This document shows positions 5,999 to 30,453 of a stretch of DNA of 32,179 nucleotides, piece after piece; position 1 is the stretch's first letter, and the number at the start of each line of letters is the position of its first letter. The stretch is taken from assembly GCA_027011385.1 (NCBI GenBank), contig JALVAD010000190.1, positions 1-32,179 of the forward strand. The letters run 5' to 3'. The position numbers were made by a program, and so were the translations under genes. Origin of the DNA: Saprospiraceae bacterium. Its GTDB lineage: Bacteria; Bacteroidota; Bacteroidia; Chitinophagales; Saprospiraceae. The notes below the pieces were generated by a model. It saw only the letters and a list, made by a program, of their open reading frames with translations. It was not told where the DNA came from and did no database searches.

Positions 5999-6012
5999 TT
6001 GATATTAATCAA
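5999..6012. promoter_or_regulatory. FNR-type binding site TTGAT-ATTA-ATCAA upstream of molybdoenzyme operon
   Basis: Exact TTGAT-N4-ATCAA palindrome in the tex/molybdoenzyme intergenic region. The same cluster encodes a Crp/Fnr regulator. Confidence 0.65.
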
Positions 6013-6077: not shown

Positions 6078-8315
6078 ATGAAAACAACAAGAAGGGAATT
6101 TATTAAGGTTTCATCGTTGGGATTGGGCGGTGTTGCTTTAGCCGGAGGAGGTTTTTCTCTATCAAAGTTATTTGGAGAAAGCAAGCATCAAGGTTTGGAT
6201 ATGAGCAAACTTAAAAGGTATCCGACTTATTGTGATGTCTGCTTCTGGAAATGTGCAGCTTGGACTTATGTCAATGATAAAAATGAGATAAAAAAGGTTG
6301 CCGGAAATGAATTGGATACTCATTGCAGGGGTAGATTGTGTCCACGAGGTACAGGAGGGCTTGGAATGTATTACGATGATGACAGATTGAAAACACCATT
6401 GATACGAGTAGAAAAGGACGGAAAACAAACGTTTAGAGAAGCTAGTTGGGAAGAAGCTCTTGATTTGATATCCGGTAAGATGAAAGATATCAAATCAAAG
6501 TACGGAGCGGAAAGTTTTGCACTCCTTAAGCACGGATCTCCAGGTAAGCATTTTGAACATTTGTTTAAAGCATTTGGCTCTGATACAATTGCAGAACCTG
6601 CTTTTGCTCAATGTAGAGGTCCACGTGCCGTTGGTTTCAAATTGACATTTGGTTCGGCTGTAGGCTCTCCTGAAACTACTGATATTAGAGATTCAAAATG
6701 CCTTGTGCTTATAGGGTCTCATATCGGAGAAAATATGCATAATTCTCAAGTACAAGAGGTCTCTGATGCTATTGATAGAGGAATAACAATTATCACAGTT
6801 GACCCAAGATTATCAACTATAGCAAATAAATCCAAATTTTGGCTACCGATAAGACCCGCTACTGATATGGCATTGCTTCTTGCTTGGATGCATGTATTGA
6901 TTTATGAAGAGTTGTACGATAAAAAATATATTGACAAGTACAGTATTGGTTTTGACAAATTGAAAGAGCATGTGCGTAAGTTTACTCCTGAATGGGCTTA
7001 TCCGATTACTGATATCAAACCAAATCAAATAAGAGAAACAGCAAGAGAAATGGCTAAAGCATCTCCGGCAGTTTTGGTTCATCCGGGACGGCATGTTACC
7101 TGGTATGGAGATGATGCTCAGAGATCACGAGCGATAGCTATATTAAATGCTCTCCTTGGTTCGTGGGGTAAAAGAGGAGGATTTTATTTCAGTGAAAAGC
7201 TGAAAGTTCCAAAATATCCACATCCTCATTACCCCGAACCAAATTGGGATGCAAAAGACTTAAGCAAAAAATATCCTTTGGCTAAAACAGGTATAACCAC
7301 TGAGGTGATTAGAGCATCAATCCCTGATGAAAATACCGAACACAAGGTAAAAGCTTGGATGGTTGCAGGCACCAATTTAACACAATCTGTTCCAAATAAA
7401 AAGATGACATTAAAAGCTATTGAGGCTTTAGAATTTTTGGTAGTTGTTGATCTGATGCCAATGGAAATAACAGGATACGCTGATGTGATACTACCTGAAT
7501 GCTCTTATCTGGAAAGATACGATATGATAAGATCTTCCGGTTGGCGAACTCCTTCAATTGCATTGAGAATGCCGGCAGTTGAACCTAGATTTAATTCCAA
7601 ACCGGCTTGGTGGATGGCAAAACAATTGGGAGAAAAGCTTGGCTTAGGAGATTATTTCAAATACAATGATTACAAAGAAGTCATCGACTGGCAATTAAAA
7701 CAATTGGGGACTTCCTTGGAAGAAATGAAGCATGTGGGTGTTATGAATTTCAATCGAAATGGTAGAGAATTGTATTTAAAAGATGGAGAAGATTATAAAT
7801 TCAAAACACCTTCGGGAAAAATAGAATTATATTCCGAAAAATTAGATAAGATGGGATTTGACCCTATACCTGTTTACAAAGCTCACGAGAAACCTCCACA
7901 AAATTATTACCGATTGATTTATGGAAGAGCACCGATGCACACATTTAGCAAAACTATCAACAATCCATATCTCAACGACTTGAAAGATACTAATAATTTA
8001 TGGATAAATCCCCGTGTCGCAGATATTTGGGGATTGAAATATGGACAAGAAATATGGATCAAAAATCAAGATGGTAAGGTTTCCGATTTTCCGGTAAAAG
8101 TTAGGATTACCGAAAGAATAAGATGGGATTCCGTTTATATGGTACACGGATTTGGTCACAATAACAAGAAGCTTTCCAGAGCTTATGGCAAAGGGGCGAG
8201 TGATTCTCAGATGATTACTAAAGTCTTGGTAGATCCATTGATGGGTGGTACGGGACTAAGAGGAAATTTTGTGACTATACTATTAGATAACCCACATAAA
8301 AACATAGAATCATGA
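6078..8315 (+). CDS. Molybdopterin oxidoreductase catalytic subunit, PsrA/PhsA-like (polysulfide/thiosulfate-type), Tat-exported
   Basis: Tat signal MKTTRREFIKVSSLGLGGVALAGG; N-terminal [4Fe-4S] motif YCDVCFWKC...CPRG; putative Mo-ligand Cys in EPAFAQCRGPRAVG; C-terminal molydopterin-dinucleotide-binding region. Followed directly by Fe-S and NrfD subunits. Confidence 0.9.
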   Translation: MKTTRREFIKVSSLGLGGVALAGGGFSLSKLFGESKHQGLDMSKLKRYPTYCDVCFWKCAAWTYVNDKNEIKKVAGNELDTHCRGRLCPRGTGGLGMYYDDDRLKTPLIRVEKDGKQTFREASWEEALDLISGKMKDIKSKYGAESFALLKHGSPGKHFEHLFKAFGSDTIAEPAFAQCRGPRAVGFKLTFGSAVGSPETTDIRDSKCLVLIGSHIGENMHNSQVQEVSDAIDRGITIITVDPRLSTIANKSKFWLPIRPATDMALLLAWMHVLIYEELYDKKYIDKYSIGFDKLKEHVRKFTPEWAYPITDIKPNQIRETAREMAKASPAVLVHPGRHVTWYGDDAQRSRAIAILNALLGSWGKRGGFYFSEKLKVPKYPHPHYPEPNWDAKDLSKKYPLAKTGITTEVIRASIPDENTEHKVKAWMVAGTNLTQSVPNKKMTLKAIEALEFLVVVDLMPMEITGYADVILPECSYLERYDMIRSSGWRTPSIALRMPAVEPRFNSKPAWWMAKQLGEKLGLGDYFKYNDYKEVIDWQLKQLGTSLEEMKHVGVMNFNRNGRELYLKDGEDYKFKTPSGKIELYSEKLDKMGFDPIPVYKAHEKPPQNYYRLIYGRAPMHTFSKTINNPYLNDLKDTNNLWINPRVADIWGLKYGQEIWIKNQDGKVSDFPVKVRITERIRWDSVYMVHGFGHNNKKLSRAYGKGASDSQMITKVLVDPLMGGTGLRGNFVTILLDNPHKNIES

Positions 8316-8848
8316 GATATGTAATGGTAATTGATACAAAAAAATGTGTAGGTTGTAGTGATTGTGTTGTCGCTTGCCAAGTAGAAAATGATGTCCCCTT
8401 GGGTTATTGCAGGGATTGGGTAACAGAATCGGTTAGCGGAAAATTCCCAAAAGTAGAAATGGAATTGAGATCTGAAAGATGCAATCATTGTGAGAACCCA
8501 CCTTGCGTGAGAACCTGCCCCACGGGAGCCAGCCATACTGTTGATGGAGGAATAGTGGTAGTGACAGGGAATAAATGCATAGGCTGCGGCGCCTGTATTG
8601 AGTCTTGTCCTTATGACGCAAGATATCAACATCCGGAAGAAGGATATGTAGATAAATGTACTTTCTGCTTCCATAGAGTGGAAAAAGGAATGAAACCGGC
8701 ATGTGTTTCTGTCTGCCCAACCAGGTGTATGTATTTTGGGGATTTACACGATCCAAATAGCGATGTTTCAAGGCTATTGGCAGAAAGAAAGTATAAGGTA
8801 CTAGCTCCTGAAGCAGGGACTAAACCTCAAGTATATTATTTGATATAG
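8312..8848 (+). CDS. 4Fe-4S ferredoxin-type electron-transfer subunit, PsrB/PhsB-like
   Basis: Four Cys clusters: CVGCSDCVVAC, CNHCENPPCVRTCPTG, CIGCGACIESCP, CTFCFHR...CVSVCPTRC. Overlaps the upstream gene by 4 bp (ATGA). Confidence 0.93.
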   Translation: MRYVMVIDTKKCVGCSDCVVACQVENDVPLGYCRDWVTESVSGKFPKVEMELRSERCNHCENPPCVRTCPTGASHTVDGGIVVVTGNKCIGCGACIESCPYDARYQHPEEGYVDKCTFCFHRVEKGMKPACVSVCPTRCMYFGDLHDPNSDVSRLLAERKYKVLAPEAGTKPQVYYLI

Positions 8849-8889
8849 TTTTAATTGAGACGGTGTATGTAACTTAAAATATAAATGGC

Positions 8890-9831
8890 ATGAACGAAGA
8901 ATTATTTATAAGCGGAAGAAATATTCACAATATTGATCCTCATTTGGAAATCTGGGAATTCCCAATTGCTTTATACTTGTTTTTAGGAGGATTGGCAGCA
9001 GGAATTCTACTTTTTGCTTCGATCGCAGTATTGTTGGATAAAGAAGAAAAATTGCCGACCACCACAATATGGGCTCCAATTATAGCTCCAATTGCAATTG
9101 TTATAGGGTTAGTAGCATTGGTGTTTGACCTGTCACACAAGATGTTTGTGTGGCAATTATATTTGGCAATAAGAATTGAATCGCCTATGTCTTGGGGTGC
9201 TTGGGTATTGCTTATTGTCACTCCATTATCATTTTTATGGGTGTTTTCGGATTTGAGAAAGATATTCCCAAAATTGGATTGGAAATTTCCGGTTTTGTAT
9301 AAACTTGAAGCTTTTATCAGGGAGCATAAAAAGTTTTTAGCGATGGTGCTCATTCCCTTATGTCTAATACTTGGAATATACACAGGAATACTGCTATCTG
9401 CTTTCAATGCGAGACCACTATGGAACAATGCCATTTTAGGGCCTTTGTTCTTGACATCGGGTTTATCAACAGCAGCAGCTGCAATTATTCTTTTGGCAAA
9501 ATCAGACTATGAGAAACATTTATTTAGTAAGATCGATGTCGGATTGATTATCATCGAGATTGGACTGATTATACATATGGTTATGGGATATTATGCAGGT
9601 GGAGAAGCTCAAATAGATGCAATACAAATTTTGATTAATGGAGATTACAGTACTATGTTTTTTGTATTCTTAGTCGGTCTGGGATTACTGTTCCCTCTAT
9701 TATTGGAAGTTTTGGAATTATGGGGATTAAAATTATCCGTTATTATCCCTGCAATATTGGTTTTGATTGGAGGTTTGGTTTTTAGAATTCTTATGGTAGA
9801 TGCGGGGCAATTGACGAGAATACTTTATTGA
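8890..9831 (+). CDS. NrfD/PsrC-family integral membrane quinol-interacting subunit
   Basis: Multi-TM protein with EFPIALYLFLGGLAAGILLFASI near the N-terminus, typical of NrfD/PsrC; genetic context with psrA/psrB-like genes. Confidence 0.88.
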   Translation: MNEELFISGRNIHNIDPHLEIWEFPIALYLFLGGLAAGILLFASIAVLLDKEEKLPTTTIWAPIIAPIAIVIGLVALVFDLSHKMFVWQLYLAIRIESPMSWGAWVLLIVTPLSFLWVFSDLRKIFPKLDWKFPVLYKLEAFIREHKKFLAMVLIPLCLILGIYTGILLSAFNARPLWNNAILGPLFLTSGLSTAAAAIILLAKSDYEKHLFSKIDVGLIIIEIGLIIHMVMGYYAGGEAQIDAIQILINGDYSTMFFVFLVGLGLLFPLLLEVLELWGLKLSVIIPAILVLIGGLVFRILMVDAGQLTRILY

Positions 9832-9852
9832 TAAAATAAATAATTATTCATT

Positions 9853-10620
9853 ATGCAAAAAAAATATATATTTCTGACCTTTCTTTTGATGGCTATGATT
9901 TTTGTTGTGGCGTTTGTTGCTGAAAGAAATAATTGTGATAGTAGTATTAGCGAACAGTTCCACTTTAAATCCAAAAAATGTACTGCTATGAGTCCGGAAA
10001 AACTCCTAATCACAGCACTAAGTTCAGACAGATTTATAGGAGTTGATGACTTAGCCCAAAAAATAATCAGTGAGGATCCCACATACATATTGATAGATAT
10101 TAGAGAAAAAGAAGAATTTCAAAAATACTCTTTACCGGGGGCTATTAATGTTCCTTTCAAAAATATTCTCAAAGTTAATGATAGTGAACCATTCTACAAA
10201 TCAAGTGCATATATCAAAGTGATTTTTTCAAATAATACTATGTTAGCGGATCAAGCTTGGATAATTATGAGAAGAATGGGTTGTAAAAACATTAAAGTAT
10301 TGGATGGAGGGCTAAATCGATTTTTCTTGACATTGATGAATCCGGCTAAACCAAAGGAAACTGACTCCCAACAAGCATTTGATATGTATAGATTTAGAAA
10401 ATCTGCGGGAATCTATTTTGGTATGCCTAATCCACAAGAGTTTATTCCTAAACAACAATTAGCAATTTACAAAGCCAAAAGGAAGATTGAAATTGCTCCA
10501 AGGGTACATTCAGCTAAAACGAATGGAAATAAGGCTAAAAGTCAGGTAAAAAAACAGGTAAAAATAATAAAAAAGAAGCAAGGAGAAGAGGAGGAAGATG
10601 AAGAAGACGAAGGTTGTTAA
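9853..10620 (+). CDS. Membrane-anchored rhodanese-fold protein lacking catalytic Cys, with acidic C-terminal tail ending in Cys
   Basis: N-terminal TM anchor; YILIDIREKEEFQKYSLPGAINVPF rhodanese motif; catalytic loop replaced by VIFSNNTMLAD; Lys-rich linker then GEEEEDEEDEGC-stop. Confidence 0.82.
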   Translation: MQKKYIFLTFLLMAMIFVVAFVAERNNCDSSISEQFHFKSKKCTAMSPEKLLITALSSDRFIGVDDLAQKIISEDPTYILIDIREKEEFQKYSLPGAINVPFKNILKVNDSEPFYKSSAYIKVIFSNNTMLADQAWIIMRRMGCKNIKVLDGGLNRFFLTLMNPAKPKETDSQQAFDMYRFRKSAGIYFGMPNPQEFIPKQQLAIYKAKRKIEIAPRVHSAKTNGNKAKSQVKKQVKIIKKKQGEEEEDEEDEGC

Positions 10621-10637
10621 ATATAAAAAATATTGAG

Positions 10638-11369
10638 ATGGGAAAGTCAAATAAAGGATTTGGAATTTTAGTAGCTATACTAATATTGTCATTTATAGCT
10701 GCAATATTCTATGTAACTGCCGATACGAGAAATATCGTACCCTTTGCAATGGATTATGATAAAGTATTAAGTGAAGTTTTGAGTCACAAAAATAGAATTT
10801 CACCGATAAAACTTGCAAAAATAATTGTTGATAAAGATTCTTCATTTGTATTGGTAGATATTAGAAGCCAATTTGATTATGACAAGGGACATTTGCCCGG
10901 TGCTACCAATATATTCAAAGCAGATATTTTGGAGAAAGATAATTTGGATTTTTTCAGATTATTAAAAGCGCAAAACAAAAGTGCCATTCTATATGGTAAT
11001 GATGCTGTTGAAGCCAATGCTCCTTTTATGATATTGCAACAAATCGGTATTGACAATGTCATTCTGTTGGAAAGCGGATATTCATTTTTTGAAGGCAATG
11101 ATTATAAAACTATTTCTGAAATGGGAGAGTTGGATTTGGGAATAGAAGTGGCAGCAATGGACTTCGCAAAATTGATTAATAGTGAGAAAACAAAAGCAAA
11201 AAATATAACCGTAGAGGAAGAGAAGGAAAAAGCTAATGCGAAAAAGGCTTTGAATTATAAGAAAAATAAAAAATCAGCCGTTACTAAAAAGACAGTAGTA
11301 ACAAAGAAAAAACAAATTCAAAAAACTGAAAAGAAAAACGAAGAAGAGGAAGAAGATGAAGGCTGTTAA
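10638..11369 (+). CDS. Membrane-anchored rhodanese-fold protein lacking catalytic Cys, with acidic C-terminal tail ending in Cys
   Basis: The ATG at 10638 (MGKSNKGFGILVAILILSFIAAIFYV, TM anchor) is preferred over the track start at 10614, which is a TTG overlapping the previous gene. FVLVDIRSQFDYDKGHLPGATNIF rhodanese motif; loop AILYGNDAVEAN without Cys; tail KKNEEEEEDEGC-stop. Confidence 0.82.
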   Translation: MGKSNKGFGILVAILILSFIAAIFYVTADTRNIVPFAMDYDKVLSEVLSHKNRISPIKLAKIIVDKDSSFVLVDIRSQFDYDKGHLPGATNIFKADILEKDNLDFFRLLKAQNKSAILYGNDAVEANAPFMILQQIGIDNVILLESGYSFFEGNDYKTISEMGELDLGIEVAAMDFAKLINSEKTKAKNITVEEEKEKANAKKALNYKKNKKSAVTKKTVVTKKKQIQKTEKKNEEEEEDEGC

Positions 11370-13149
11370 TGGTTATAACATCCTAGGATTGATTATTTAT
11401 CTTTTGTTTTTTTATTCGTGTACTTCCGATAATAATTCTGCTACCAATCAGACTAAATCGGAATCTTGCTTGTCTTGTCATAGTGGTATGACAGGATTTA
11501 GCGATGCTCATAATCCCGAAGCAATTGGGTGTAGCTCCTGCCATTTGGGTAATATCAATTCTGATATAAAGGAAATAGCTCACCAAGGGATTGTGCGAAT
11601 TCCCGGAAATCTTAGTAATGTTTCACAGACTTGTTCCACTACAAATTGTCATAAAAGTGAATTTAACAGGGTGAAAAATTCAATAATGACTACAAATAGT
11701 GGAATTGTAAGTATTGACAAATTTGCATTTGAAGAAGTAAATCATACCGATACTTTTTTTCATATTGAGAATATTCAAGGTACTGCCGCGGACAGACACT
11801 TAAAGAATCTTTGTTATAAATGCCATTTGGGATATGAGAAAAAACATCCCGGAGCTACTTCAGAATTATCGCGTGGTGGAGGCTGTTTGGCTTGCCATTT
11901 GAATTATAATAAACATAAAATTGATAGTTTAGCACATCCCTCTTTAGATTTGAATATCGGTAATGAAAAATGTTTTGGTTGTCATAGCCGGTCTAGTAGA
12001 ATCTCCACTAATTATGAGGGATGGTATGAAACTGTTTTGTCCAAAGAAGATGTAAAAGACTTTACCAAATATCGGATTCTACTTGATGGCAGAGTATTTG
12101 CACACGCAGAGGATGATGTTCATCATAGAGCAGGATTACTGTGTATAGATTGTCATTCTTCAATTGATGTGATGGGAGATGGACAAAGATATAACCATCA
12201 AAGTGATGCTGTCAAAATCCGATGTACAGATTGCCACCCCAAAGCAGGATTTAATAAAATAAGCCGTAAAAAGGCAGGAATTATCGCAGCTAAAGATTAT
12301 GTTCTGAGAAAATATAAATATAAAAGTAAAGAATTTATAATCACACAAAAAGATTCTGTTGCATTAGTAAATACAGGATTCAACAAAGAAGGAGCGCCTT
12401 TCTTGATTGGCAAATTTAATCAAAAAATACACCACTTAAAGAACCAGCCTGATGCTTGCCAAAAAGATAAAGTACACAGTAAGCTTGATTGTAGTATGTG
12501 TCACACTTCTTGGGTTACAAGTTGTATAGGCTGTCATACAGGATATGATGACAAAGTAAAAATAAAAGGAACAACCAAAAGAGGGAAATGGTATGAAGAA
12601 ATTGGTGAGTTTAATAAATCCTTGCCTGTAATGGGAGTAAGCTTTGATGAAGAAAAAACAATAACGCCCTCAATTCCGGGAATGATAATGACTTTGGATA
12701 AAACAGGGTTTAAAGGTGAAAAATATGGACATGATTCTATTTTTCTTCGACTTTTTGCACCAATTTCTGCACATACAATTAATCCCAAATCCCGTTCTTG
12801 TAAATCCTGCCACCTCAATCCTGAGGCAATTGGGTATGGTAAAGGCACATTAATGTTTAATAAGAATACAGGTAAATGGCTCTTTGAGTCTTTGTATGAC
12901 ATTGCAAAACAAGATAGTTTGCCACAAGATGCTTGGATTGGGTTTCTGTCGGCTATTGAAAAAAAAAATAGGTATTCGGCTCATCAAAACTTTTACCCTT
13001 TGGATTTGGATGAACAAATTAAGGTATTAAAGGTCGGGTCATGCATATATTGTCATCCAAATAATGAAGTTCTTTTAACAAAAATAATTGAAGGTAAATA
13101 CAAACAACAAATTGATAAATGCAAATATTTTATTGATAAAAATAATTAA
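11356..13149 (+). CDS. Multiheme c-type cytochrome (11 CXXCH plus 1 CX4CH), putative lipoprotein
   Basis: Heme motifs CLSCH, CSSCH, CSTTNCH, CYKCH, CLACH, CFGCH, CIDCH, CTDCH, CSMCH, CIGCH, CKSCH, CIYCH; N-terminal hydrophobic segment ending in LLFFYSC (possible lipobox). Confidence 0.93.
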   Translation: MKAVNGYNILGLIIYLLFFYSCTSDNNSATNQTKSESCLSCHSGMTGFSDAHNPEAIGCSSCHLGNINSDIKEIAHQGIVRIPGNLSNVSQTCSTTNCHKSEFNRVKNSIMTTNSGIVSIDKFAFEEVNHTDTFFHIENIQGTAADRHLKNLCYKCHLGYEKKHPGATSELSRGGGCLACHLNYNKHKIDSLAHPSLDLNIGNEKCFGCHSRSSRISTNYEGWYETVLSKEDVKDFTKYRILLDGRVFAHAEDDVHHRAGLLCIDCHSSIDVMGDGQRYNHQSDAVKIRCTDCHPKAGFNKISRKKAGIIAAKDYVLRKYKYKSKEFIITQKDSVALVNTGFNKEGAPFLIGKFNQKIHHLKNQPDACQKDKVHSKLDCSMCHTSWVTSCIGCHTGYDDKVKIKGTTKRGKWYEEIGEFNKSLPVMGVSFDEEKTITPSIPGMIMTLDKTGFKGEKYGHDSIFLRLFAPISAHTINPKSRSCKSCHLNPEAIGYGKGTLMFNKNTGKWLFESLYDIAKQDSLPQDAWIGFLSAIEKKNRYSAHQNFYPLDLDEQIKVLKVGSCIYCHPNNEVLLTKIIEGKYKQQIDKCKYFIDKNN

Positions 13150-13155
13150 TCCGGC

Positions 13156-13833
13156 TTAGCCAAACTCACTTATGCGTTCAAGCATTGATTTATTTTTTAT
13201 TTTAAAGCTTTTACCTTTTAATTTTATAAGCTTATCCGCTTCAAATTCTTTCAGGATGCGTATCGTATTTTCCATAGAAAGTCCCGCAAATTCTGCTAAT
13301 TCTTGTCTTGATAGTGGAATTGTGAATTCAAGACATCCAAAAATATGGTTTGAAAGACATAAAATCATATCGGCAACCTTGCCTCTTGAATTTTTTTCGG
13401 TAATACATAGCAGTCTTTTATAAAACCTGGAAGTGTTGTGATTGATATATTTTATAATTTCATTACTGAAAGCGACATTCTTTCTTAATACTTCTTTAAA
13501 TGCCATTTTATCATATAGCTCAACTTTACATTTCTCAAGTGCAGTTACCGTATATTGATAAGTTTTATCCTCAGTATATAAACTTGATAGACCAAGGAAG
13601 TTATTATCTCTTTTAATTGTCAATATTATTTTTTTTTGAGATCCTTCAATATATATTTTTGATATTCCTTTTTTTACAAAAATGATGCTATTACTTAGAG
13701 TACCTTGTTTGATTAAAACTTCTCCTTTGTCATATTTTATACTCGTTTTATTGTTTTTAAGAATTAATAATTCGCTTTCTGTTAGCAATTCAAATGCCTC
13801 ATTATGAGTAATATCTTTAATACAATTTGACAT
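13156..13833 (-). CDS. Crp/Fnr-family transcriptional regulator
   Basis: cNMP-binding-like domain and C-terminal HTH (IPLSRQELAEFAGLSMENTIRILKEFEADKLIKLKGKSFKI). The track start (13905) is a TTG inside a palindrome, so MSNCIKDI (ATG at 13833) is the more plausible start. Confidence 0.9.
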   Translation of the reverse strand: MSNCIKDITHNEAFELLTESELLILKNNKTSIKYDKGEVLIKQGTLSNSIIFVKKGISKIYIEGSQKKIILTIKRDNNFLGLSSLYTEDKTYQYTVTALEKCKVELYDKMAFKEVLRKNVAFSNEIIKYINHNTSRFYKRLLCITEKNSRGKVADMILCLSNHIFGCLEFTIPLSRQELAEFAGLSMENTIRILKEFEADKLIKLKGKSFKIKNKSMLERISEFG

Positions 13834-13891
13834 ATAAGCTCTTGTTGTTTCGGTAAATATAAAGTATTGCTGAGATTTGTCATAATATTTT

Positions 13892-13905
13892 TTGATAAAT
13901 ATCAA
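13892..13905. promoter_or_regulatory. FNR-type binding site TTGAT-AAAT-ATCAA upstream of the regulator, in the divergent intergenic region
   Basis: Exact TTGAT-N4-ATCAA palindrome between the regulator (minus) and the rhodanese lipoprotein gene (plus). Confidence 0.65.
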
Positions 13906-13960
13906 TAAATAAGATGCTTTATAGCAAATGATTACTCAAGGATTATAAATCAATTGAATT

Positions 13961-13968
13961 TAACTTTG
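13961..13968 (+). promoter_or_regulatory. Possible Bacteroidota-type -7 element (TAnnTTTG) for the 14046 gene
   Basis: TAACTTTG matches the TAnnTTTG consensus; no convincing -33 TTTG found at the expected spacing. Confidence 0.3.
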
Positions 13969-14045
13969 TGTCAGAATAATCATTGGATGTTTTAATGATT
14001 TTTCAAATTTACAAAATTTAATTTTTTAAACAAAAAACTAATATC

Positions 14046-15026
14046 ATGAAAAAGCTTTTTAATTTATTATTGATTGTGGCATTTGTGCCTTTATTATTTA
14101 CTACAGGATGTAAAAAGGATATTGTTGATGCAGAATTTGATACACTGACAGAATACGTAAGTACTAATAATTTGGATTTACCAAATATATTGGATGGTTG
14201 GGTAAAACCCGGTTCAAAAATAGGTGTAGATACGGTAGATTACTCAGTTCCTAATTATTATATTATGGACTTTAGAAAGGCTGATGATTTTGCTAAAGGG
14301 CATATCAAAGATGCACATAATGTAGTTTTTGCTAAACTTTTGGATGAAGCTGCAAAAGCAGGCGGTAAGGATATACTTTGTGTATGCTATACAGGACAGA
14401 CCGCTGCCAGAGCAACCGGATTTTTAAGATTGGCAGGATACCATGCTGTTACGCTCAAGTGGGGTATGGCTGGTTGGAATGCTGATTTTGATGCTAAATG
14501 GGCTACAAATGCAAAAGATGTAAATTCTCCAAATTGGGTGACAACCGGTGCACCTACTGCTATTTCTGAATTCGATGCACCGGAGTTTACAACAGATAAA
14601 ACAGATGGTAAAGATATTTTAACAGCCAGAATAAACAAAGCAATTGCTTATGATTGGACAATTAGTAATTCTGATGTATTAGCTAATCCTGAAAATTATT
14701 TTATAAACAATTTTTGGCCACAAGATTCTTGGGATACTTACGGACATATAAAAGGTGCCTATAGAATAAGTGATTTAAAAGCTGAAACATTAAAGAATCT
14801 TGATCCAAAAGAAACTGTTGTTACATATTGTTACACGGGGCAAACATCCGCTATTACAACAGCATGGTTGCAGGTGATGGGTTTTGATAAAGCTAAAAGT
14901 TTGCTATTTGGAGCAAATGGAATGGCTCATTCTAAGCTTGTAGTTGGAACAGTTGGTAAAGCAGCAGCTAAATCTTGGCATGGAGCAGGAAGTGCCAGCA
15001 CATTGAACTATGGATACGTGAAATAA
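14046..15026 (+). CDS. Lipoprotein with two rhodanese domains, both retaining the active-site Cys
   Basis: Lipobox LLFTTGC; active loops CYTGQTAA and CYTGQTSA, each preceded by a substrate/D-x-R type rhodanese motif (YYIMDFRKADDFAKGHIKDAHNVVF). Confidence 0.9.
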   Translation: MKKLFNLLLIVAFVPLLFTTGCKKDIVDAEFDTLTEYVSTNNLDLPNILDGWVKPGSKIGVDTVDYSVPNYYIMDFRKADDFAKGHIKDAHNVVFAKLLDEAAKAGGKDILCVCYTGQTAARATGFLRLAGYHAVTLKWGMAGWNADFDAKWATNAKDVNSPNWVTTGAPTAISEFDAPEFTTDKTDGKDILTARINKAIAYDWTISNSDVLANPENYFINNFWPQDSWDTYGHIKGAYRISDLKAETLKNLDPKETVVTYCYTGQTSAITTAWLQVMGFDKAKSLLFGANGMAHSKLVVGTVGKAAAKSWHGAGSASTLNYGYVK

Positions 15027-15052
15027 AAATACTATTTTGATTTACTAAAATT

Positions 15053-15088
15053 ATAGCCTGTCTGTGCAATCAACGGGCGGGCTATTTT
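15053..15088 (+). terminator. Rho-independent-type terminator after rhodanese lipoprotein gene
   Basis: 12-bp stem ATAGCCTGTCTG/CGGGCGGGCTAT with three G-U wobbles, 9-nt loop, followed by TTT. Confidence 0.7.
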
Positions 15089-15103
15089 AAAAAATAGTAC
15101 AAC

Positions 15104-15117
15104 TTGACTTTTTTCAA
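15104..15117. promoter_or_regulatory. Weak FNR-like half-conserved palindrome TTGA-N6-TCAA before porin gene
   Basis: TTGACTTTTTTCAA about 19 bp upstream of the porin ATG; outer TTGA/TCAA conserved, inner T/A not. Confidence 0.3.
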
Positions 15118-15135
15118 CAATTTAAAACTAATGTT

Positions 15136-16230
15136 ATGATTAAGATAAAATTTATAATTGCACTTCTTATTACACTATTTGCTACTCAAGCCATGTTTTC
15201 ACAAGGTTGTGAAGAGCCGGGTGAAGGTGATGGCATCAATATTTTTGGTTATATTCAACCACAATTTGAATACAATTTTTATGGCAAAGACGGTATTTTT
15301 AATAAAAACGCTGACAAAAGCGGATTTTATTTCCAAAGGGCAAGATTGGGAGTTCTGGGAAATATCCCATACGATTTCAGTTACTATTTTGTGATGGAAT
15401 TTTCGCCTGAAAGAGGTATGGGAATCAACGATGCTTTTGTCACTTACAATAGGTTTGGTCCTTACTTGAAAGTTTCGATGGGACTGTTCAAAACTCCTTT
15501 TGGATTAGAGCAAATGACAGGTTGCCACAAGTTGACATCTATTTACCGATCTCATGTCGTTGATGAATTGGCAGGACCTATAAGAGATATGGGAATTATG
15601 CTTTCTGGTGGAACAGGAGAGAAAAAAATATTCGGTTTGAAAGCTAAAAACATTTTTGGATACCAATTTGCCATTGTTAATGGTGAAGGAAGAAATACTA
15701 AAGATATTGACAATAGAAGATCATATATTGGAAGATTTACATTTCATCCTTTTGATTTTATTTCTATTGGAACAAGTTATAGATACAGCAATTTTAAACC
15801 TCTAGCCGAAGGAACTGAAAAAGACGATTATGGTACCAGATTAGGTTATGAGCTTATGTTGAAATACAAAGGCTTCAAATTATCGGGGGAAATGATTTCC
15901 GGAAGTGATGTTGGTACAATTAAATCAGGTGGTGGATGTAGCGGGTTGCCGGTGACATACGAGGAAGGTTCTGTTGACAAAAGCGGTTATTACTTTATGG
16001 CGTCATACAAAACTCCTTGGAATATCGAACCTGTGATTAAGTATGAATCATATGATCCAAATCTTGATCCCAAAGAAGGAAAAGAGGATGCATTTTCAAC
16101 AATGACATTCGGAGTGAATTATTTTTTCAATGAGTGGACCAGACTACAAGTCAATTATCTATACAATGCTGAAGAAAAGGAAAAAAGAAATGATAGACTG
16201 GTTATTCAGGTACAAGCAGTAATTAAATAA
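15136..16230 (+). CDS. Outer-membrane beta-barrel porin (phosphate-selective porin O/P-like)
   Basis: Signal peptide; GINIFGYIQPQFEYNF... FYFQRARLGVLGNIPYDFSYYFVMEFSPERG... LKVSMGLFKTPFGLEQM, typical of OprO/OprP-like porins; amphipathic strands to the C-terminus. Confidence 0.85.
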   Translation: MIKIKFIIALLITLFATQAMFSQGCEEPGEGDGINIFGYIQPQFEYNFYGKDGIFNKNADKSGFYFQRARLGVLGNIPYDFSYYFVMEFSPERGMGINDAFVTYNRFGPYLKVSMGLFKTPFGLEQMTGCHKLTSIYRSHVVDELAGPIRDMGIMLSGGTGEKKIFGLKAKNIFGYQFAIVNGEGRNTKDIDNRRSYIGRFTFHPFDFISIGTSYRYSNFKPLAEGTEKDDYGTRLGYELMLKYKGFKLSGEMISGSDVGTIKSGGGCSGLPVTYEEGSVDKSGYYFMASYKTPWNIEPVIKYESYDPNLDPKEGKEDAFSTMTFGVNYFFNEWTRLQVNYLYNAEEKEKRNDRLVIQVQAVIK

Positions 16231-16249
16231 AAAAACTAAATCAATAAAA

Positions 16250-17122
16250 ATGAAAACATATAAATTATTAGGAATAATCTCCTTGATAGTAATGATGGTC
16301 ACCGGTTTGACTGCTCAAGGGGACATAATCACGGCAAAACAATTCAAAGAATTGAAGAAAAGTGCCGATAATTTGGTAATTGTCGATGCAAGTAAAGCTA
16401 AACTTTATAAAAAAGCACATATAAAAGGAGCCGTAAATATACCGTATAAAGTACTGAATCTTGACAAAGGCATTGGTGAAGTAGCAGGTTTGCTTAAGCC
16501 TGTTGAAGATGTTGCTAAATTACTTGGTGACAAAGGAATTAGCAATACAGATATGATAGTTGTATATGACGAAGGAAGCCAAAAATATTCTTCAAGAGTC
16601 TATTGGGTGCTAAAATACCTCGGCGCAAAGAATGTAAAATTATTGCACAAAGAAAATAAAGCGTGGAGAAAAGCGCGTATTCCATTGACATCTTCATCAA
16701 CAAAACTCGATGCTAAAACTTTTGAGGTAGTGATAAACAATGATGTATTTGCTGATATTTCATTTATTGAATCAAATAAAGATATTGTTATAGTCGATGC
16801 GAGAGGCAAGAAAGAATTTACCGGTACCGGAGACAAGAAAAAAACAAAATATAGCAAAGGACATTTACCCGGAGCAGTCAACTTATTCTTCAAAGATGTA
16901 CAAAATGAAGACAAATCATTTAAAAGTGTTGAAGATATGACAAAAATCGCTGAAGATTTGGGCTTCACAAAAGACAAAACATATGTTGTTTATTGCAAAA
17001 CAGGTATAAAGGCAGCAGTAGTTTATAATGCATTGAAAAACGTATTGGGATATCCAAATGTGAAGCTATATGACGGAGCTTATCTGGAATGGGAAAAGAA
17101 AGGCAAGGCAATAGAGAAATAA
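16250..17122 (+). CDS. Secreted tandem rhodanese (sulfurtransferase), second domain catalytic
   Basis: Signal peptide MKTYKLLGIISLIVMMVTGLTAQG; N-terminal domain loop VVYDEGSQKYSSR (Asp at Cys position), C-terminal domain loop VVYCKTGIKAA (Cys present); GHLPGAVNLFF motif. Confidence 0.92.
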   Translation: MKTYKLLGIISLIVMMVTGLTAQGDIITAKQFKELKKSADNLVIVDASKAKLYKKAHIKGAVNIPYKVLNLDKGIGEVAGLLKPVEDVAKLLGDKGISNTDMIVVYDEGSQKYSSRVYWVLKYLGAKNVKLLHKENKAWRKARIPLTSSSTKLDAKTFEVVINNDVFADISFIESNKDIVIVDARGKKEFTGTGDKKKTKYSKGHLPGAVNLFFKDVQNEDKSFKSVEDMTKIAEDLGFTKDKTYVVYCKTGIKAAVVYNALKNVLGYPNVKLYDGAYLEWEKKGKAIEK

Positions 17123-20634: not shown

Positions 20635-23600
20635 TTAAAATACTATCATCCGTTTTGTATCAACAAATTCATCTACTTCAAGTCTGTAAAACAATATTCC
20701 GGTCGCATACAAATCTTTCTTTTCGATTTTGACTTGATTGATACCGCCTTTTGCCATTCCTGCATATGATTTTATCTCCTTTCCCGTAATATCAAAAATC
20801 GACAGTTTGTATTTTGATGCTTTTGGCAATCTAAACTCGATTTTTGATGATTTTGAAAAAGGATTTGGAACATTCTGGCATAACTTATATTTTGGAGATG
20901 AGTTTACTTGAGTTATTGCATCTGTATTTATGATTTCAAGGGATATTTTTGATGTTTTCAATTCATCACCTCTATATGCTTCGGATTTTAATAATAAATT
21001 ATCTACTTGCAATACTTTATCTAATTCGGAATCAGCATTAGCCATTAGTTTCAGTGTAAACAATGCTTCGTCTTTACCAAATGAAGATGCTCGAAAATCA
21101 GCTATACCTAATAGCAAATTTCCTAAGATTTCATTATAATTATTTTCATATATTTCCAAAGCTCCGTTTTCTATTCCAATAAATTCTGCTCCGTGAATAT
21201 ACAGAGATAATTGTAATCCAAAAACATCATTGAAATTACCGGAATAAACCGGCACAATAACAGTATCTCCCTTAGCAAATTTTTGATTTTTAATCACAAG
21301 ATCCAGCGTTTGTGTATCCTGTGGTATCGAATCGACAATACTATTATCCGTATCACCGATTTTAAAGGCATAAAAATCTATGTCATCTACGTCATTGTTA
21401 AATAAATCTACTATTTGTATTCTCGCTTCATCTAATTCTTTTAATGCTTGTGCCGGATTTGCAAATTCATAATCCTTTGATATCGCTATCCATGAATTGT
21501 TTTCAAATTCTGTTTCTTCTCTAAGGAGTATTTTCAAGAGGGAATTTATATCTGAAATAGTAATACTGCCATCGTTATTGGCATCCATAGATAGTAAGTT
21601 GTACGGTGAAGCCGGCTGTTTTAATCCCAGCAAAAACAATTTCATCAGAATCATATCCCTAATATTGATTCCTCTGAGATAATTGCTGTCGAGAGTTCCC
21701 GAAATAGTATATGAACCTTCTTTTAGATTAAAGTCATAATATCCGCCATCTGTTTTAGTATTTTTTATAATAACGGTATCTTCTGCTATCATATTCATAC
21801 CGTTAAATCGTATATCGGAATTCAAATATGTTACTCTTCCGTTTAGATTATAAAAATGTTCGCCTTCTAATATTATTTTTATAGGAGAGAAAGCATAATT
21901 ATTGTCATCACATTCTTCGTCATAGGCGAATTTATCCCAAACGTAAATTCTAACAGGTAAATTTTTAGGATTGGCATCTTCTGTAAATTTCAATATTCTG
22001 CGTTGAGATGTGTTTTTTCCCGGTATCCATGCATCAGCTTCTCCTTGTAAAAATGCTTCATTTGTACTAATGTTTCCGGTTTTTGGATCAAAGAAATACT
22101 TGCCGTATTTTACGAATTGTTTTTCCCACTTTGAAGTATTTTCCCAAAGTTTTGGTATATAATCGGTAAATGTAAAATAGAGCTTATCTTTTGTAGCACA
22201 ATTATCAATTGAAGCGATACAGCCTTCACAACCTCCCTTATCAAAATCAACTGCATTTATCTCCACAATTCCATAATCCAAATAAACTACCGACACATCG
22301 GAAGTTATAGGGGTAGGAGCTGTTTTATCAGCAACAGCAAAATATTGTTCGACTGTTTTTACATTGCCACAATGTCCTCTCACCGTCCATTTAACCTTAT
22401 AATGTCCTTCGCTAAGACCCGATAGCAAATATTGCGATGCAATATCCGTACTGTCTATATTATCCTTTTGAATATCACCTACAACTCCTTGAATGGGATG
22501 AGGAAGATAATTGTAAGAATACTGAACAGTAATCCAAGTATCAACATTTGTAACGATATATTTCCATTGTGCATTATTGTCTAAGCCGCAAGAATCAATT
22601 AATCTGGCAGACAATACTACATCTTGAGTATAACAATCTTCAATGCCAATACAAGAATTCTCAACCACAACATCGATAAGATTCTTTTTTGTAACCACGA
22701 TATTTTGAATATATCTGTAGTAACCATCATTAACCAAATTCGAGCAATCTATGTGACCATTTGCAATCGAGTCCATATTTGATTCCGCTTGACTACCAGG
22801 ATCGTATTTACACCAATCAATAACAGCCCATTCACGTATCAATTTGAATCTGTGACTATCCTCAACAATAGTGTCTTCTTTGACGATTTCCGCAGTTATA
22901 TCATTACAATGATCGTCAGTCCATGTAGGTGTTTCAAGATTATCCAAATCCTTATATAAAATATCAATATCCCTTTCAGGGAAAACAATTGTACAAGGAT
23001 TAAACACTTTGTCGGGTAGTATTCTTATCTCTTGCTGGCAATAAGAAGTATCAATTCCATTTGAAACAGTCCAAGTTCTTTTTACGATATTATCACAATG
23101 TTGGTTAAAATGTTTATCAGTATATGTACGGGTATCATAATTACATAAACCGAGGATATCCGGTGACAATTTTGGATTGATATCCGGTGATAAACTTTCA
23201 CTACATGTAATTTCTACCTTTGGACAATCGATTATATCCGGCAAAACATCATATACCAAAATCACTTGTGAATATCTGTAATAACCATCAATTAGAAGAC
23301 TGTCACAAATCAAGCGTTGGTCTTTGGTAATATCGACATTATTCTCTGCACCGCTATTAGCTTGATAAACGCAATGGTCGATTACCGCCCAATCTCTTAT
23401 TATTTTGAAATAGCCTTCTTCGGTAAAATCAAAGGTGTCCTCGTTTATTATTTTTGCGCTTATATCATTACAGACATTGCTTTCCCAAACAGGGGCTTTG
23501 TCTAAGTTTCCGGCACAATTTGTTTTGATATCACCGGGAAAAACAATTGTGCATGGGTCAAAAGGAAGCGTAGAATCAGGTAAGAAAATATGTTGTTGGC

Positions 23601-25584
23601 AAGTCGATTCGACATTATCGATAGATACTTTCCATGTCCTTAGTATTTCATTGCCACAATTTTCCAATCTTTGGTCGGAATATTCCAAATCGTAAAGACA
23701 TCCTCTTTCGGTTTTTGGATACAGTTTATTATTTTCATCAGGATTTAGACTTTCATCACAAGACAATAAGATATCAGTACATTCTATGAATGGTTTGAGA
23801 GTATCTTGGAAATTAATAACTGCCCAGCAATCCCTGTAATGGTTTTTAAGGTCACCGTTTTCTCCAAAACGTTCAGGATTTACATCACCTGAGCCCGGGT
23901 CAACATCCAATACTCTCAAGGAAACCATTAGTTTCCCTTGAGTAACATTTTCAGAACATATAGAGATTGAATCCTTGTACCATGAATCGGTTTCGCTATT
24001 GTTTTCTTCAAGATAATTGCATTGTGCATCATACTCAGATACATTATCAACTTTTCGAGCTTTAAAGTAGAGAGAGCCGCAATTATCAAACGAATTGCCG
24101 TTGAATCTGACAGCAGCAATTTTTGTCAAACCACAATAGGGATAATTTATATTGAGCATTTTACAAGCCGGAATAGGTGGTTTACCATCAAATACAAGCA
24201 AATCAACACACTTTTCGGATTCTACACCGGCAGTATCTACCATATGATAACAAAGATTGTATTCACCTAATGCTAGGTCGTGTATTACCCAAGTCTCGGT
24301 ACTGTCATAAAGCCCGTTATCGTCAGTGTCACCCATTATAGTATCACTATCAAATGTAACCCAATATTTATCAATGATACTACATTTTTCGCCGAATACC
24401 GGTAGTTTTGGAATTACAATATCAGCTTTACAAGACATAGGATTTGTACTAAATCTCAATGTATCTCCTACTATTTCCTCAAAGGAGAAATCATTTTTTA
24501 CAACTATTACTTGGATATGTGTTAAAACCTCACCTGTACAATCATTTACCAATGTCCATTCTCTTAGTATTTTTACCTTATTGGTAAGTTGGTATTTGCT
24601 ATCTTGATAAATATCTTCAATTGTTCCACAAGATTGGGAAAAGCCTTCAGGGATACCGGTTATATCCGTATGAGGGTTGCCATTTGCGTCAATTTTACTT
24701 ATATTATTGCAATAAAGTATAGGATTATTTCCTTGTAGTCCATCCCAATTTACTGGCCATCTAAACGCTTTCAGTAAATCTGTTCCTGTGAAAAAATATT
24801 CGGAAGTACAAGTTTGTTGGTCTCCATTTGCATCTGTTATAGTATAGTGTCTCAATAGGTTTTGTTCTCCGCAATTATCCCCCCAAAAAATATCATCATC
24901 CCAATCTATAGAATAATCATTTGGAATTTCGGGAATAGGTATATCGAAACTCGCAGTATCTTCATAGCAGCTACTGAATACACATTCTTCTGCATACACC
25001 CTTTTGGCGAAAAAAGCTTGTCCTTGATTAACAGCCTTAATTGAAATATGATAGTTCCCTATAAACTCAGCATCATAATCCATGACTAATAACGTATAAA
25101 TTTTTCCGGTATCCAGAGAGACAATATTTTTTATCATACCACTATCTTGAGGTTCTTCAAATTGTAATAAAGAATCTCTGACAATATATCCCCCAAGTCC
25201 CAAAATAAGATTATCACAAGTCGGTTTCCCCCATGAATTTGCAATATATAGGCCTAAAATTAATTTGTTGTTATCCGAACCGGCAAACTTGTATTCTCCT
25301 GATTGGGAAACAGTAAAATTGTAACGATCAAAATAGTGAATGCCATCATCGGGAATTTGGTCATGAGTACCAAAATCCCAGCAAGCCTTGTCTATTTCTA
25401 TTGCAAAATCTTTGGGCGACAAGCTTCCATTTAGCGTGTCCGGAAACTCATCTCCTATATCAAATTTACCTCCCGGCTGACACGGGCAATTGATGGTTTG
25501 GGTATAAACATTCGTATTTACAAATAGAAATATATATACGATTAAAATAATACTAATAAAATCGGTGTTTTTGGATTTGTTCAT
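20635..25584 (-). CDS. Large secreted protein with tandem Cys-rich repeats, dockerin-like EF-hand segment, cohesin-like region and T9SS type A C-terminal sorting domain
   Basis: N-terminal signal peptide; two repeats of about 185 aa beginning IECTDILLSCDESLNP / IIDCPKVEITCSESLSP; SMDANNDGSITISDINSLLKIL; C-terminal CQNVPNPFSKSSKIEFRLPKASKYKLSIFDITGKEIKSY...GILFYRLEVDEFVDTKRMIVF. Confidence 0.9.
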   Translation of the reverse strand: MNKSKNTDFISIILIVYIFLFVNTNVYTQTINCPCQPGGKFDIGDEFPDTLNGSLSPKDFAIEIDKACWDFGTHDQIPDDGIHYFDRYNFTVSQSGEYKFAGSDNNKLILGLYIANSWGKPTCDNLILGLGGYIVRDSLLQFEEPQDSGMIKNIVSLDTGKIYTLLVMDYDAEFIGNYHISIKAVNQGQAFFAKRVYAEECVFSSCYEDTASFDIPIPEIPNDYSIDWDDDIFWGDNCGEQNLLRHYTITDANGDQQTCTSEYFFTGTDLLKAFRWPVNWDGLQGNNPILYCNNISKIDANGNPHTDITGIPEGFSQSCGTIEDIYQDSKYQLTNKVKILREWTLVNDCTGEVLTHIQVIVVKNDFSFEEIVGDTLRFSTNPMSCKADIVIPKLPVFGEKCSIIDKYWVTFDSDTIMGDTDDNGLYDSTETWVIHDLALGEYNLCYHMVDTAGVESEKCVDLLVFDGKPPIPACKMLNINYPYCGLTKIAAVRFNGNSFDNCGSLYFKARKVDNVSEYDAQCNYLEENNSETDSWYKDSISICSENVTQGKLMVSLRVLDVDPGSGDVNPERFGENGDLKNHYRDCWAVINFQDTLKPFIECTDILLSCDESLNPDENNKLYPKTERGCLYDLEYSDQRLENCGNEILRTWKVSIDNVESTCQQHIFLPDSTLPFDPCTIVFPGDIKTNCAGNLDKAPVWESNVCNDISAKIINEDTFDFTEEGYFKIIRDWAVIDHCVYQANSGAENNVDITKDQRLICDSLLIDGYYRYSQVILVYDVLPDIIDCPKVEITCSESLSPDINPKLSPDILGLCNYDTRTYTDKHFNQHCDNIVKRTWTVSNGIDTSYCQQEIRILPDKVFNPCTIVFPERDIDILYKDLDNLETPTWTDDHCNDITAEIVKEDTIVEDSHRFKLIREWAVIDWCKYDPGSQAESNMDSIANGHIDCSNLVNDGYYRYIQNIVVTKKNLIDVVVENSCIGIEDCYTQDVVLSARLIDSCGLDNNAQWKYIVTNVDTWITVQYSYNYLPHPIQGVVGDIQKDNIDSTDIASQYLLSGLSEGHYKVKWTVRGHCGNVKTVEQYFAVADKTAPTPITSDVSVVYLDYGIVEINAVDFDKGGCEGCIASIDNCATKDKLYFTFTDYIPKLWENTSKWEKQFVKYGKYFFDPKTGNISTNEAFLQGEADAWIPGKNTSQRRILKFTEDANPKNLPVRIYVWDKFAYDEECDDNNYAFSPIKIILEGEHFYNLNGRVTYLNSDIRFNGMNMIAEDTVIIKNTKTDGGYYDFNLKEGSYTISGTLDSNYLRGINIRDMILMKLFLLGLKQPASPYNLLSMDANNDGSITISDINSLLKILLREETEFENNSWIAISKDYEFANPAQALKELDEARIQIVDLFNNDVDDIDFYAFKIGDTDNSIVDSIPQDTQTLDLVIKNQKFAKGDTVIVPVYSGNFNDVFGLQLSLYIHGAEFIGIENGALEIYENNYNEILGNLLLGIADFRASSFGKDEALFTLKLMANADSELDKVLQVDNLLLKSEAYRGDELKTSKISLEIINTDAITQVNSSPKYKLCQNVPNPFSKSSKIEFRLPKASKYKLSIFDITGKEIKSYAGMAKGGINQVKIEKKDLYATGILFYRLEVDEFVDTKRMIVF

Positions 25585-29034: not shown

Positions 29035-30453
29035 ATGAATGAATCAATTGTTAGTATATTTATGAAATGGTGTGGTGAGACACCTTACAAAATCACACCA
29101 CTACCTCAATCAGGTTCTAGCAGAAAATACTATAGAATCAAATCATCAAATCACATAGCTATTGGTGTTGAGAATACCGATCGAAAGGAAAATATTGCTT
29201 TTTTGGAATTCACAAAGCACTTTCTGAATAAAGGGATAAATGTACCTGAAATTCTTTTTTCAGATATTGATAACGATGTTTATCTCTTGGAAGATTTAGG
29301 GGATATTACCTTGTTTTCATATTTGACAGACAAAAAGAAAACAGGCAAATTTCCTGCAAAACTCAAAAGTGTATATAAGCAAGTCTTGGATCAATTGCCT
29401 GAAATTCAAATTAAAGCTTCTGAGGGACTACCTTATATATACTGTTATCCTCGCGCGGAATTTGACAAACAATCGATGATGTGGGATTTGAGCTATTTTA
29501 AATATTATTTTTTGAAATTAGCCCAAATTGAGTTTGATGAACAAGCTCTTGAAAATGACTTTCAAGCTTTCACAGATTATTTACTTACTGCTGATAGAGA
29601 TTATTTCCTGTATCGTGATTTTCAATCCAGAAATATAATGCTCAAAGGCGAAAAAATATATTTCATTGACTATCAAGGAGGGAGAAAAGGAGCATTGCAA
29701 TATGATGTCGCTTCACTGCTCTACGACGCTAAGGCTGCGATACCGGATGAGATAAGAGATGAGCTATTGGAATACTATATCAATAATTTAAATAAATATA
29801 TAAAGGTAGATGAAGTCAAATTCAAGAATTATTATTTCGGATATGTATTGATACGTATAATGCAAGCGATGGGTGCTTATGGTTTCAGGGGATTTTACGA
29901 GAAAAAAGCACATTTCTTAGCGAGTATTCCTTATGCTATAAAAAATATGAAAGGAATACTTGAAAAGATACAATTACCAATAGAGTTACCTACATTAATG
30001 TCTGTCTTAGATAAATTGGTAAATTCGGAAAGACTTCAAAAAATAGGAAAAGAAAGAAAAAAACTAACGGTTAGCGTAAATAGTTTTTCATACAAAAGGG
30101 GAATACCAATTGATGAATCCGGACATGGTGGCGGTTTTGCATTTGATTGTAGAGCGCTTAATAATCCCGGAAGATATGAGCAGTACAAAAAACTGACAGG
30201 CAAAGACCTTAAAGTGATAAATTTTTTGGAACAAGAAGAAGATGTACATAAATTTATTAAAAATGTGAAGGGGTTAATTGATATATCTCTAAATACATAT
30301 CTAAGACGGGAATTCAGTAACTTAATGATAAATTTTGGTTGTACCGGAGGTCAGCACAGGTCGGTTTATATGGCTGAATATTTTGCCAATTACCTCAAGA
30401 ACAAATACAATGTAAAAGTAGTGCTAAGGCATAGGGAACAAGAAATGAAGTAG
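29035..30453 (+). CDS. Fusion protein: APH-type phosphotransferase domain plus RapZ C-terminal domain
   Basis: N-terminal kinase-like DNDVYLLEDLGDITLFSYL and YRDFQSRNIMLKGEKIYFIDYQGGRKGALQYDVASLLYD; C-terminal SFSYKRGIPIDESGHGGGFAFDCRALNNPGRY...INFGCTGGQHRSVYMAEYFANYL...LRHREQE, the RapZ C-terminal signature. Confidence 0.92.
   Translation: MNESIVSIFMKWCGETPYKITPLPQSGSSRKYYRIKSSNHIAIGVENTDRKENIAFLEFTKHFLNKGINVPEILFSDIDNDVYLLEDLGDITLFSYLTDKKKTGKFPAKLKSVYKQVLDQLPEIQIKASEGLPYIYCYPRAEFDKQSMMWDLSYFKYYFLKLAQIEFDEQALENDFQAFTDYLLTADRDYFLYRDFQSRNIMLKGEKIYFIDYQGGRKGALQYDVASLLYDAKAAIPDEIRDELLEYYINNLNKYIKVDEVKFKNYYFGYVLIRIMQAMGAYGFRGFYEKKAHFLASIPYAIKNMKGILEKIQLPIELPTLMSVLDKLVNSERLQKIGKERKKLTVSVNSFSYKRGIPIDESGHGGGFAFDCRALNNPGRYEQYKKLTGKDLKVINFLEQEEDVHKFIKNVKGLIDISLNTYLRREFSNLMINFGCTGGQHRSVYMAEYFANYLKNKYNVKVVLRHREQEMK

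Follow-up and report, generated by a model that had tools for sequence, protein, structure and literature searches.

Comparison with described systems

The delivery of insoluble or reactive zero-valent sulfur to periplasmic reductases and to the cytoplasm is an open question. In Candidatus Thermonerobacter (Ignavibacteria), psrABC genes are accompanied by two Sulf_transp domains and a rhodanese, and Ignavibacterium album and Melioribacter roseus possess relatives of these psrABC genes (PMC6338057). Geobacter contains a rhodanese-porin-12-heme set within extHIJKLMNOPQS (PMC5877670, PMC6148476), and loss of extI impairs the reduction of selenite and tellurite (PMC5877670). SoxY carries sulfur on the cysteine of a C-terminal GGCGG motif (PMC6067878), and half-transporters of the PmpAB type, as well as sulfur import by YeeE/SoxT, are known (PMC11582611). 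We have analyzed a contig of 32,179 nucleotides (JALVAD010000190.1; the window) from a Saprospiraceae metagenome-assembled genome (MAG). Positions 6078–17122 encode a predicted Psr/Phs-type molybdoenzyme complex (A, B and C), two membrane-anchored rhodaneses (R1 and R2), a 12-heme-motif cytochrome, a Crp/Fnr-family regulator, a tandem-rhodanese lipoprotein (RL), a porin and a secreted tandem rhodanese (RH). The closest named relatives are also Saprospiraceae MAGs (L038), with 94–99% protein identity over the locus.

The locus has the three subunits, Tat-type leader, cysteine molybdenum ligand and NrfD quinone subunit of PsrABC/PhsABC, as exemplified by Thermus PsrA (2vpw), but enzymes of its clade are accompanied by cysteine-tailed membrane rhodaneses and often by Sulf_transp half-proteins. 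The Thermonerobacter cluster, which has been published only as a list of genes, without mention of a tail, shares the core gene content of psrABC-Sulf_transp-rhodanese; the window adds the 12-heme cytochrome, Crp/Fnr, RL, porin and RH, and is without the transporter. Rhodanese-porin neighbours and a 12-heme cytochrome are shared with Geobacter ext, as are an ExtP-like cytochrome b and a Rieske protein in relatives of the window. However, ext has no Psr/Phs enzyme, and ExtKL, ExtN, ExtS, ExtO and ExtP are absent from the window. Membership of ext was rejected on the model scores (198 bits against a cut-off of 800 for ExtM, NF040943; 37.9 against 150 for ExtI; 70.3 against 200 for ExtH), and the cytochrome, porin and RH are predicted to be distant kin of ExtM, ExtI and ExtH, respectively.

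The glycine-flanked cysteines in the arms of R1 and R2 (GGC, GGCG or EGC) and in a porin loop (GGGC[GS]G) recall the swinging arm of SoxYZ, but the folds (rhodanese or porin) are unrelated to SoxY, and the cysteine of R1 and R2 is located at the very C-terminus. Assignment of R1 and R2 to the SoxY family was rejected, given their rhodanese fold and the lack of Sox genes in the window; the comparison concerns only how they might work. In the polysulfide respiration of Wolinella, the periplasmic rhodanese Sud feeds the Psr enzyme and uses its catalytic-loop cysteine, whereas R1 and R2 have no loop cysteine, are membrane-anchored and end in a cysteine. An earlier note on this DNA, made from the sequence, called the cluster a candidate undescribed module; the C-terminal cysteines of R1 and R2, the three invariant cysteines of the porin and a paralogous operon in the same genome had escaped it. 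As a whole the cluster is not undescribed, since the psrABC-Sulf_transp-rhodanese core (PMC6338057) and the ExtH/I/M-type parts (PMC5877670) are known. No C-terminal-cysteine rhodanese carrier linked to thiosulfate reductase, and no description of such a tail or of a cysteine porin, was found in the open-access literature. New here are the terminal-cysteine tails of R1 and R2, their matching within an operon, the fusions of R1 to a transporter and the three invariant cysteines of the porin.

Cysteine tails of the membrane rhodaneses

R1 (9853–10620) and R2 (10614–11369) both match PF00581 and end in EDEGC. In their homologues, an N-terminal anchor is followed by a rhodanese domain that lacks the catalytic cysteine and by a hypervariable, charged linker that terminates in GGC, EGC or GGCG. 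The terminal cysteine is present in all 42 complete R1 homologues (the window gene being counted twice) and in 17 of 18 R2 homologues, the exception (L048) being an open reading frame (ORF) called without the tail. It is the sole well-conserved cysteine of R1 and R2, and none of the aligned homologues of either protein has a cysteine in the active-site loop. Rhodaneses make up 34 of the 36 ORFs that end in GC among the 545 complete ORFs of the loci anchored on the cytochrome. The AlphaFold2 model of R1 comprises a membrane helix (residues 2–26), a confident rhodanese domain, whose fold was confirmed by Foldseek, and a disordered tail (residues 214–255). Because the terminal cysteine is strictly conserved, R1 and R2, which had been regarded as degenerate in the earlier note, are better read as putative sulfur carriers than as decayed enzymes.

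The tails of R1 and R2 from one operon are alike, sharing 7.3 of 11 residues (p=5e-5 by permutation, a value that is not literal, as the test carries no correction for phylogeny and the independent tail types are few). The likeness exists despite a domain identity of only ∼25–30% and synonymous differences in the DNA encoding the tails, and suggests that the tails of one operon have been selected for a shared partner.

The same genome (G000) has a paralogous operon (contig C82, 92–7805; L033) with psrABC-like genes, two Sulf_transp halves and three rhodaneses that all end in RKKKxVSGGCG. The rhodaneses of three other loci of this genome (L034, L035 and L036) have no such ending. The tail type of R1 and R2 is also found on the secreted RH in L061 and L071, and loci from Ignavibacteria share the core genes and this kind of tail (KKKKREGC). 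The search for carriers outside Bacteroidota covered a plasmid collection. On plasmid 1 of Gemmatirosa kalamazoonensis (L108, 5906–8468), a rhodanese ORF ending in RRRGC adjoins a Sulf_transp-like (T1-like) ORF, a possible case from Gemmatimonadota. A further tailed family comprises small rhodanese-like proteins that end in DDGGEVGGC or DTGGEVGGC and adjoin octaheme cytochromes (L064, 4146–4685; L072, 1084–1647).

Association with YeeE/YedE-type transporters

Between C and R1, most relatives encode two half-proteins of the Sulf_transp (YeeE/YedE) type (T1 and T2). The motif GRGCTSG is invariant in these halves (43/43) and GG[FY]CPGT is nearly so (37/38). In L103 (genome G362), L104 (genome G110) and L107, the second half and an R1 domain with a GGC tail form one fused protein. 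The fusions of G362 and G110 adjoin a membrane protein and an octaheme cytochrome that resembles the tetrathionate-reductase-family octaheme of L064 (TIGR04315). This neighbourhood suggests that a carrier-transporter unit has been recruited again, to another putative sulfur-oxyanion enzyme. As a separate observation, L109 (7405–11389) and L110 (6664–10633) each combine an L064-like octaheme cytochrome with a membrane protein, one Sulf_transp half and a GGC-ending fusion of Sulf_transp to rhodanese, so that the carrier-transporter unit again appears beside another enzyme.

The molybdoenzyme complex and the cytochrome

Pfam assigns A (6078–8315) as a molybdoenzyme catalytic subunit, with a Tat-type leader (RREF), a 4Fe4S site and a predicted molybdenum ligand, Cys179, which is invariant in 21 relatives. 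It is adjoined by B (8312–8848), a ferredoxin-like electron-transfer subunit with four Fe-S clusters (Fer4_11 and related), and by C (8890–9831), an NrfD-type quinone-coupling membrane subunit (PF03916, 172 bits). Thus, an exported catalytic subunit with a cysteine ligand occurs together with the B and C subunits that characterize the Psr/Phs group. A matches Thermus PsrA over its full length with 632 bits, compared to 186 bits for the next solved relative. The best-scoring profile is that of PhsA (PRK15488), with 486 bits, which does not reach its cut-off of 694, compared to 44 bits for TtrA and 152.5 bits for ArrA (cut-off 1600); the ArrA in the PDB scores 116 bits. Affiliation with Arr, Ttr or Dms is rejected on these profile and solved-structure scores, and A is predicted to be a Psr/Phs-type enzyme, in agreement with the earlier note.

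In the tree, A clusters with Flavobacteriaceae homologues. A long branch (1.83) sets the enzymes that occur with tailed rhodaneses, from Bacteroidota and Ignavibacteriota, apart from a third lineage at 43% identity; the deep forks are weakly supported. The fetched loci of this third lineage contain no tailed rhodaneses. A is thus not placed in an unrelated substrate clade, an outcome that the earlier note had considered, and rhodaneses accompany its relatives elsewhere.

The cytochrome (11356–13149) is a putative lipoprotein with 11 CX2CH motifs and one CX4CH motif, 12 in total. In many relatives it is fused to an ExtP-like cytochrome b (below the cut-off), with a Rieske gene upstream, whereas the window cytochrome is a lone lipoprotein. 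The arrangement in relatives suggests a separate electron route from quinol to the periplasm.

Organization and conservation of the module

The ten genes (nine module genes and one Crp/Fnr gene) were confirmed at the positions read earlier, and the note's count of six rhodanese domains in four proteins was borne out by Pfam, all six being above the cut-off. By their motifs, both RL domains (CYTGQTA and CYTGQTS) and RH domain 2 (CKTGIKA) have the catalytic cysteine, whereas R1, R2 and RH domain 1 are without it. The genes form two units. The first, A-B-C-R1-R2-cytochrome, consists of overlapping or closely spaced genes; the second is RL-porin-RH, with the Crp/Fnr gene (13156–13905; PF00027 and PF13545) divergent from RL on the reverse strand, all other genes being on the forward strand. 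The contiguous cluster of the earlier note is therefore a single module, as judged by co-occurrence and a shared palindrome, but not a single operon.

Co-occurrence was assessed in 396 genomes, sampled evenly across the phylum Bacteroidota, 29 of which have the clade A enzyme. All 27 genomes with strong matches to the R1 profile (weaker matches, including the transporter-rhodanese fusions, being left uncounted) also have A, nearly always in the same stretch. The cytochrome is found in 13 genomes, all with A (0.95 expected, p=9e-17), and RL in 31, of which 12 have A (2.3 expected, p=1e-7), although these p-values assume independent genomes and overstate the significance. In 39 loci found via the cytochrome alone, RL, porin and RH are either all present (14 loci) or all absent. 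Of the 39, many of which are on truncated contigs, 24 contain A, and in nine A is accompanied by RL, porin and RH, the gene order varying. A closed chromosome (G174, L112) has the order porin-RL-RL-x-R2-R1-T2-T1-C-B-A adjoining the cytochrome, and an environmental isolate, Flavobacterium alvei (L069), has the whole module. MAGs, some of them from sulfidic habitats, are among the hosts, as are aerobes like Flavobacterium and Maribacter. Thus, the two halves, whose separation in other genomes would have counted against the earlier note, are one real conserved module. Near it in L044 (12608–16384) are genes for a type III SQR (643 bits, cut-off 525), DsrC-like and DsrE-like proteins and DUF1641, and similar SQR/DsrC/DsrE-like sets are found in L048, L066, L077 and L113 (1813–3891).

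RL (14046–15026) is a lipoprotein with two PF00581 matches, each with a CYTGQT active-site loop, and its lipobox cysteine and both catalytic cysteines are invariant (12/12). In L047, L050 and L056, RL is internally duplicated (∼620–640 residues, with four rhodanese domains by sequence reading). The porin (15136–16230; PF07396) has three cysteines that are invariant in 16 of 16 homologues: C25 at the mature N-terminus (QGC), C130, and C268 within GGGC[GS]G (GGGCSG in the window), whose flanking residues vary slightly. Two other readable Porin_O_P proteins of the same genome contain no cysteine. The best match of the AlphaFold2 barrel is the anion-specific OprP; judging by the strand order of the model, C130 would occupy the position of loop 3, and C268 would be part of a different outer loop. 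RH (16250–17122) is a mercaptopyruvate-sulfurtransferase-like protein that falls under the cut-offs of both PRK11493 (121.6 bits) and ExtH, and Cys249 is its one invariant cysteine (15/15).

The window contains only two exact TTGATN4ATCAA sites. These FNR-type palindromes are TTGATATTAATCAA (5999–6012), 79 bp upstream of the A gene, and TTGATAAATATCAA (13892–13905), between the Crp/Fnr gene and RL. In 679 kb comprising the window and the loci of relatives, 9 of 10 exact sites are upstream of A or RL/Crp. A box of the TGT-N-ACA type was also considered and is less consistent. The divergent Crp/Fnr-RL arrangement is repeated in relatives, and both units are probably co-regulated. Start calls based on ORF length are unreliable for R2, Crp and the high-GC loci L108 and L119, and starts were excluded as evidence. 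The true start of R2 is probably ATG 10638 rather than TTG, and that of the Crp/Fnr gene probably lies ∼72 nt inside the called ORF, the relatives having 225–226 residues.

Proposed mechanism and alternatives

We give an even chance to the proposal that the module forms a quinone-coupled, periplasm-facing sulfur respiratory complex of the Psr/Phs type that is served by a cysteine relay. Sulfane sulfur, as polysulfide or thiosulfate, would enter through the cysteine-bearing anion porin, possibly after being handled by the two-cysteine RL, and RH would carry it through the periplasm. The terminal cysteines on the flexible tails of R1 and R2, as pseudo-rhodaneses of the inner membrane, would then present the sulfur to A, the fold docking and the tail carrying, in a manner similar to the SoxY swinging arm. 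Electrons would pass from C through B to the molybdenum site, most likely in the reductive direction, with release of sulfide. In most relatives, the YeeE/YedE halves beside R1 may pass this sulfur to and from the cytoplasm. Electrons would also be carried in the periplasm, separately, by the 12-heme cytochrome, which in many relatives would receive them from the fused cytochrome b and Rieske protein, and the Crp/Fnr-type regulator would turn on both operons through the shared palindromes. From the observed families, co-occurrence, conserved cysteines, fusions and shared boxes, together with the modelled disorder of the R1 tail, we infer a persulfide on the tail, its docking into A, the direction, the substrate and the function of the boxes.

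The Sulf_transp halves, type III SQR, DsrC/DsrE and octaheme tetrathionate-reductase family in the loci of relatives point to a sulfur substrate. The envelope sulfur relay of the earlier note is supported, as an inference, by these neighbours, the families and the conserved cysteines, whereas its selenium or tellurium alternative is weak, the ext models being missed widely. It is quite possible, if on balance somewhat doubtful, that R1 and R2 represent a new class of carriers, in which cysteine-less rhodanese folds bring a C-terminal cysteine arm to a molybdoenzyme, a YeeE/YedE transporter or both, and in which sulfur crosses the envelope protein-bound with the help of a porin bearing a glycine-flanked cysteine. 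If true, this would be a new way of moving sulfur through the cell envelope, on flexible cysteine-tipped tails. It would assign a likely role to rhodaneses that have been written off as inactive, and would provide a candidate sulfur respiration for Bacteroidota. The putative relay, a chain of conserved cysteines between the outer membrane and an enzyme linked to quinone, is also present in culturable Flavobacterium and Maribacter species, and is testable by single-residue changes.

Several points weigh against this proposal. The window operon has no Sulf_transp halves, which are present in the paralogous C82 operon, and the tail permutation test has the limits given above. Arsenate is a serious rival substrate: growth of M. 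roseus is not supported by S0, thiosulfate or sulfite, and arsenate induces its psrA/phsA, whose product is a proposed arsenate reductase (PMC3534657, PMC5492636). In view of this induction, quinol-linked reduction of polysulfide or thiosulfate by A-B-C is putative. The SQR next to the module in some relatives could be a sign of sulfide oxidation, and the cysteine-less R1 and R2 could be mere scaffolds.

Operation of the same relay in the oxidative direction, a possibility also raised by the earlier note, is unlikely but deserves weight. Here, the tails of R1 and R2 would bring persulfide or sulfide-derived sulfur to A, which would oxidize it and reduce quinone, and cytochrome b, Rieske protein and the 12-heme cytochrome would export the electrons. 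The SQR, DsrC and DsrE genes adjoining the module in L044 and similar loci, the aerobic hosts and the fusion of an ExtP-like cytochrome b to the cytochrome agree with this direction. However, the FNR-type palindromes before both operons suggest anaerobic use, the nearest characterized enzyme is a polysulfide/thiosulfate reductase, and neither Sox genes nor a persulfide dioxygenase were seen in the loci. A role of A as another respiratory oxyanion reductase, for arsenate in the first place and then for selenite or tellurite, with the rhodaneses protecting against or recycling sulfur species formed along with it, such as thioarsenates, appears improbable. The strong arsenate induction of a Psr/Phs in M. 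roseus (PMC5492636) and the hampered selenite and tellurite reduction of Geobacter without ExtI (PMC5877670) are set against a lower score for ArrA than for PhsA, the wide misses of the Ext models, and the recurrence of sulfur transporters and sulfur-oxidation genes in the neighbourhood.

It is very doubtful that R1 and R2 serve as structural scaffolds or sensors, with the terminal cysteine as an anchor, metal ligand or redox switch and with sulfur diffusing to the enzyme as in ordinary Psr/Phs systems. Many Psr/Phs enzymes do work without cysteine-tailed rhodaneses, and the catalytic cysteine is missing from the rhodanese domains of all R1 and R2 homologues. Nevertheless, the glycine-flanked terminal cysteine is invariant across the phylum and may also occur in Gemmatimonadota; R1 is already anchored at its N-terminus; the same type of tail occurs on the secreted RH in two loci; and the R1 domain is fused to a sulfur transporter.

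Other features of the window

No structural RNA or tRNA was found in the window. Outside the module, positions 20635–25584 encode a secreted protein of 1649 residues that weakly matches a type IX secretion sorting domain, and positions 29035–30453 encode an APH-type phosphotransferase fused to a RapZ C-terminal domain.

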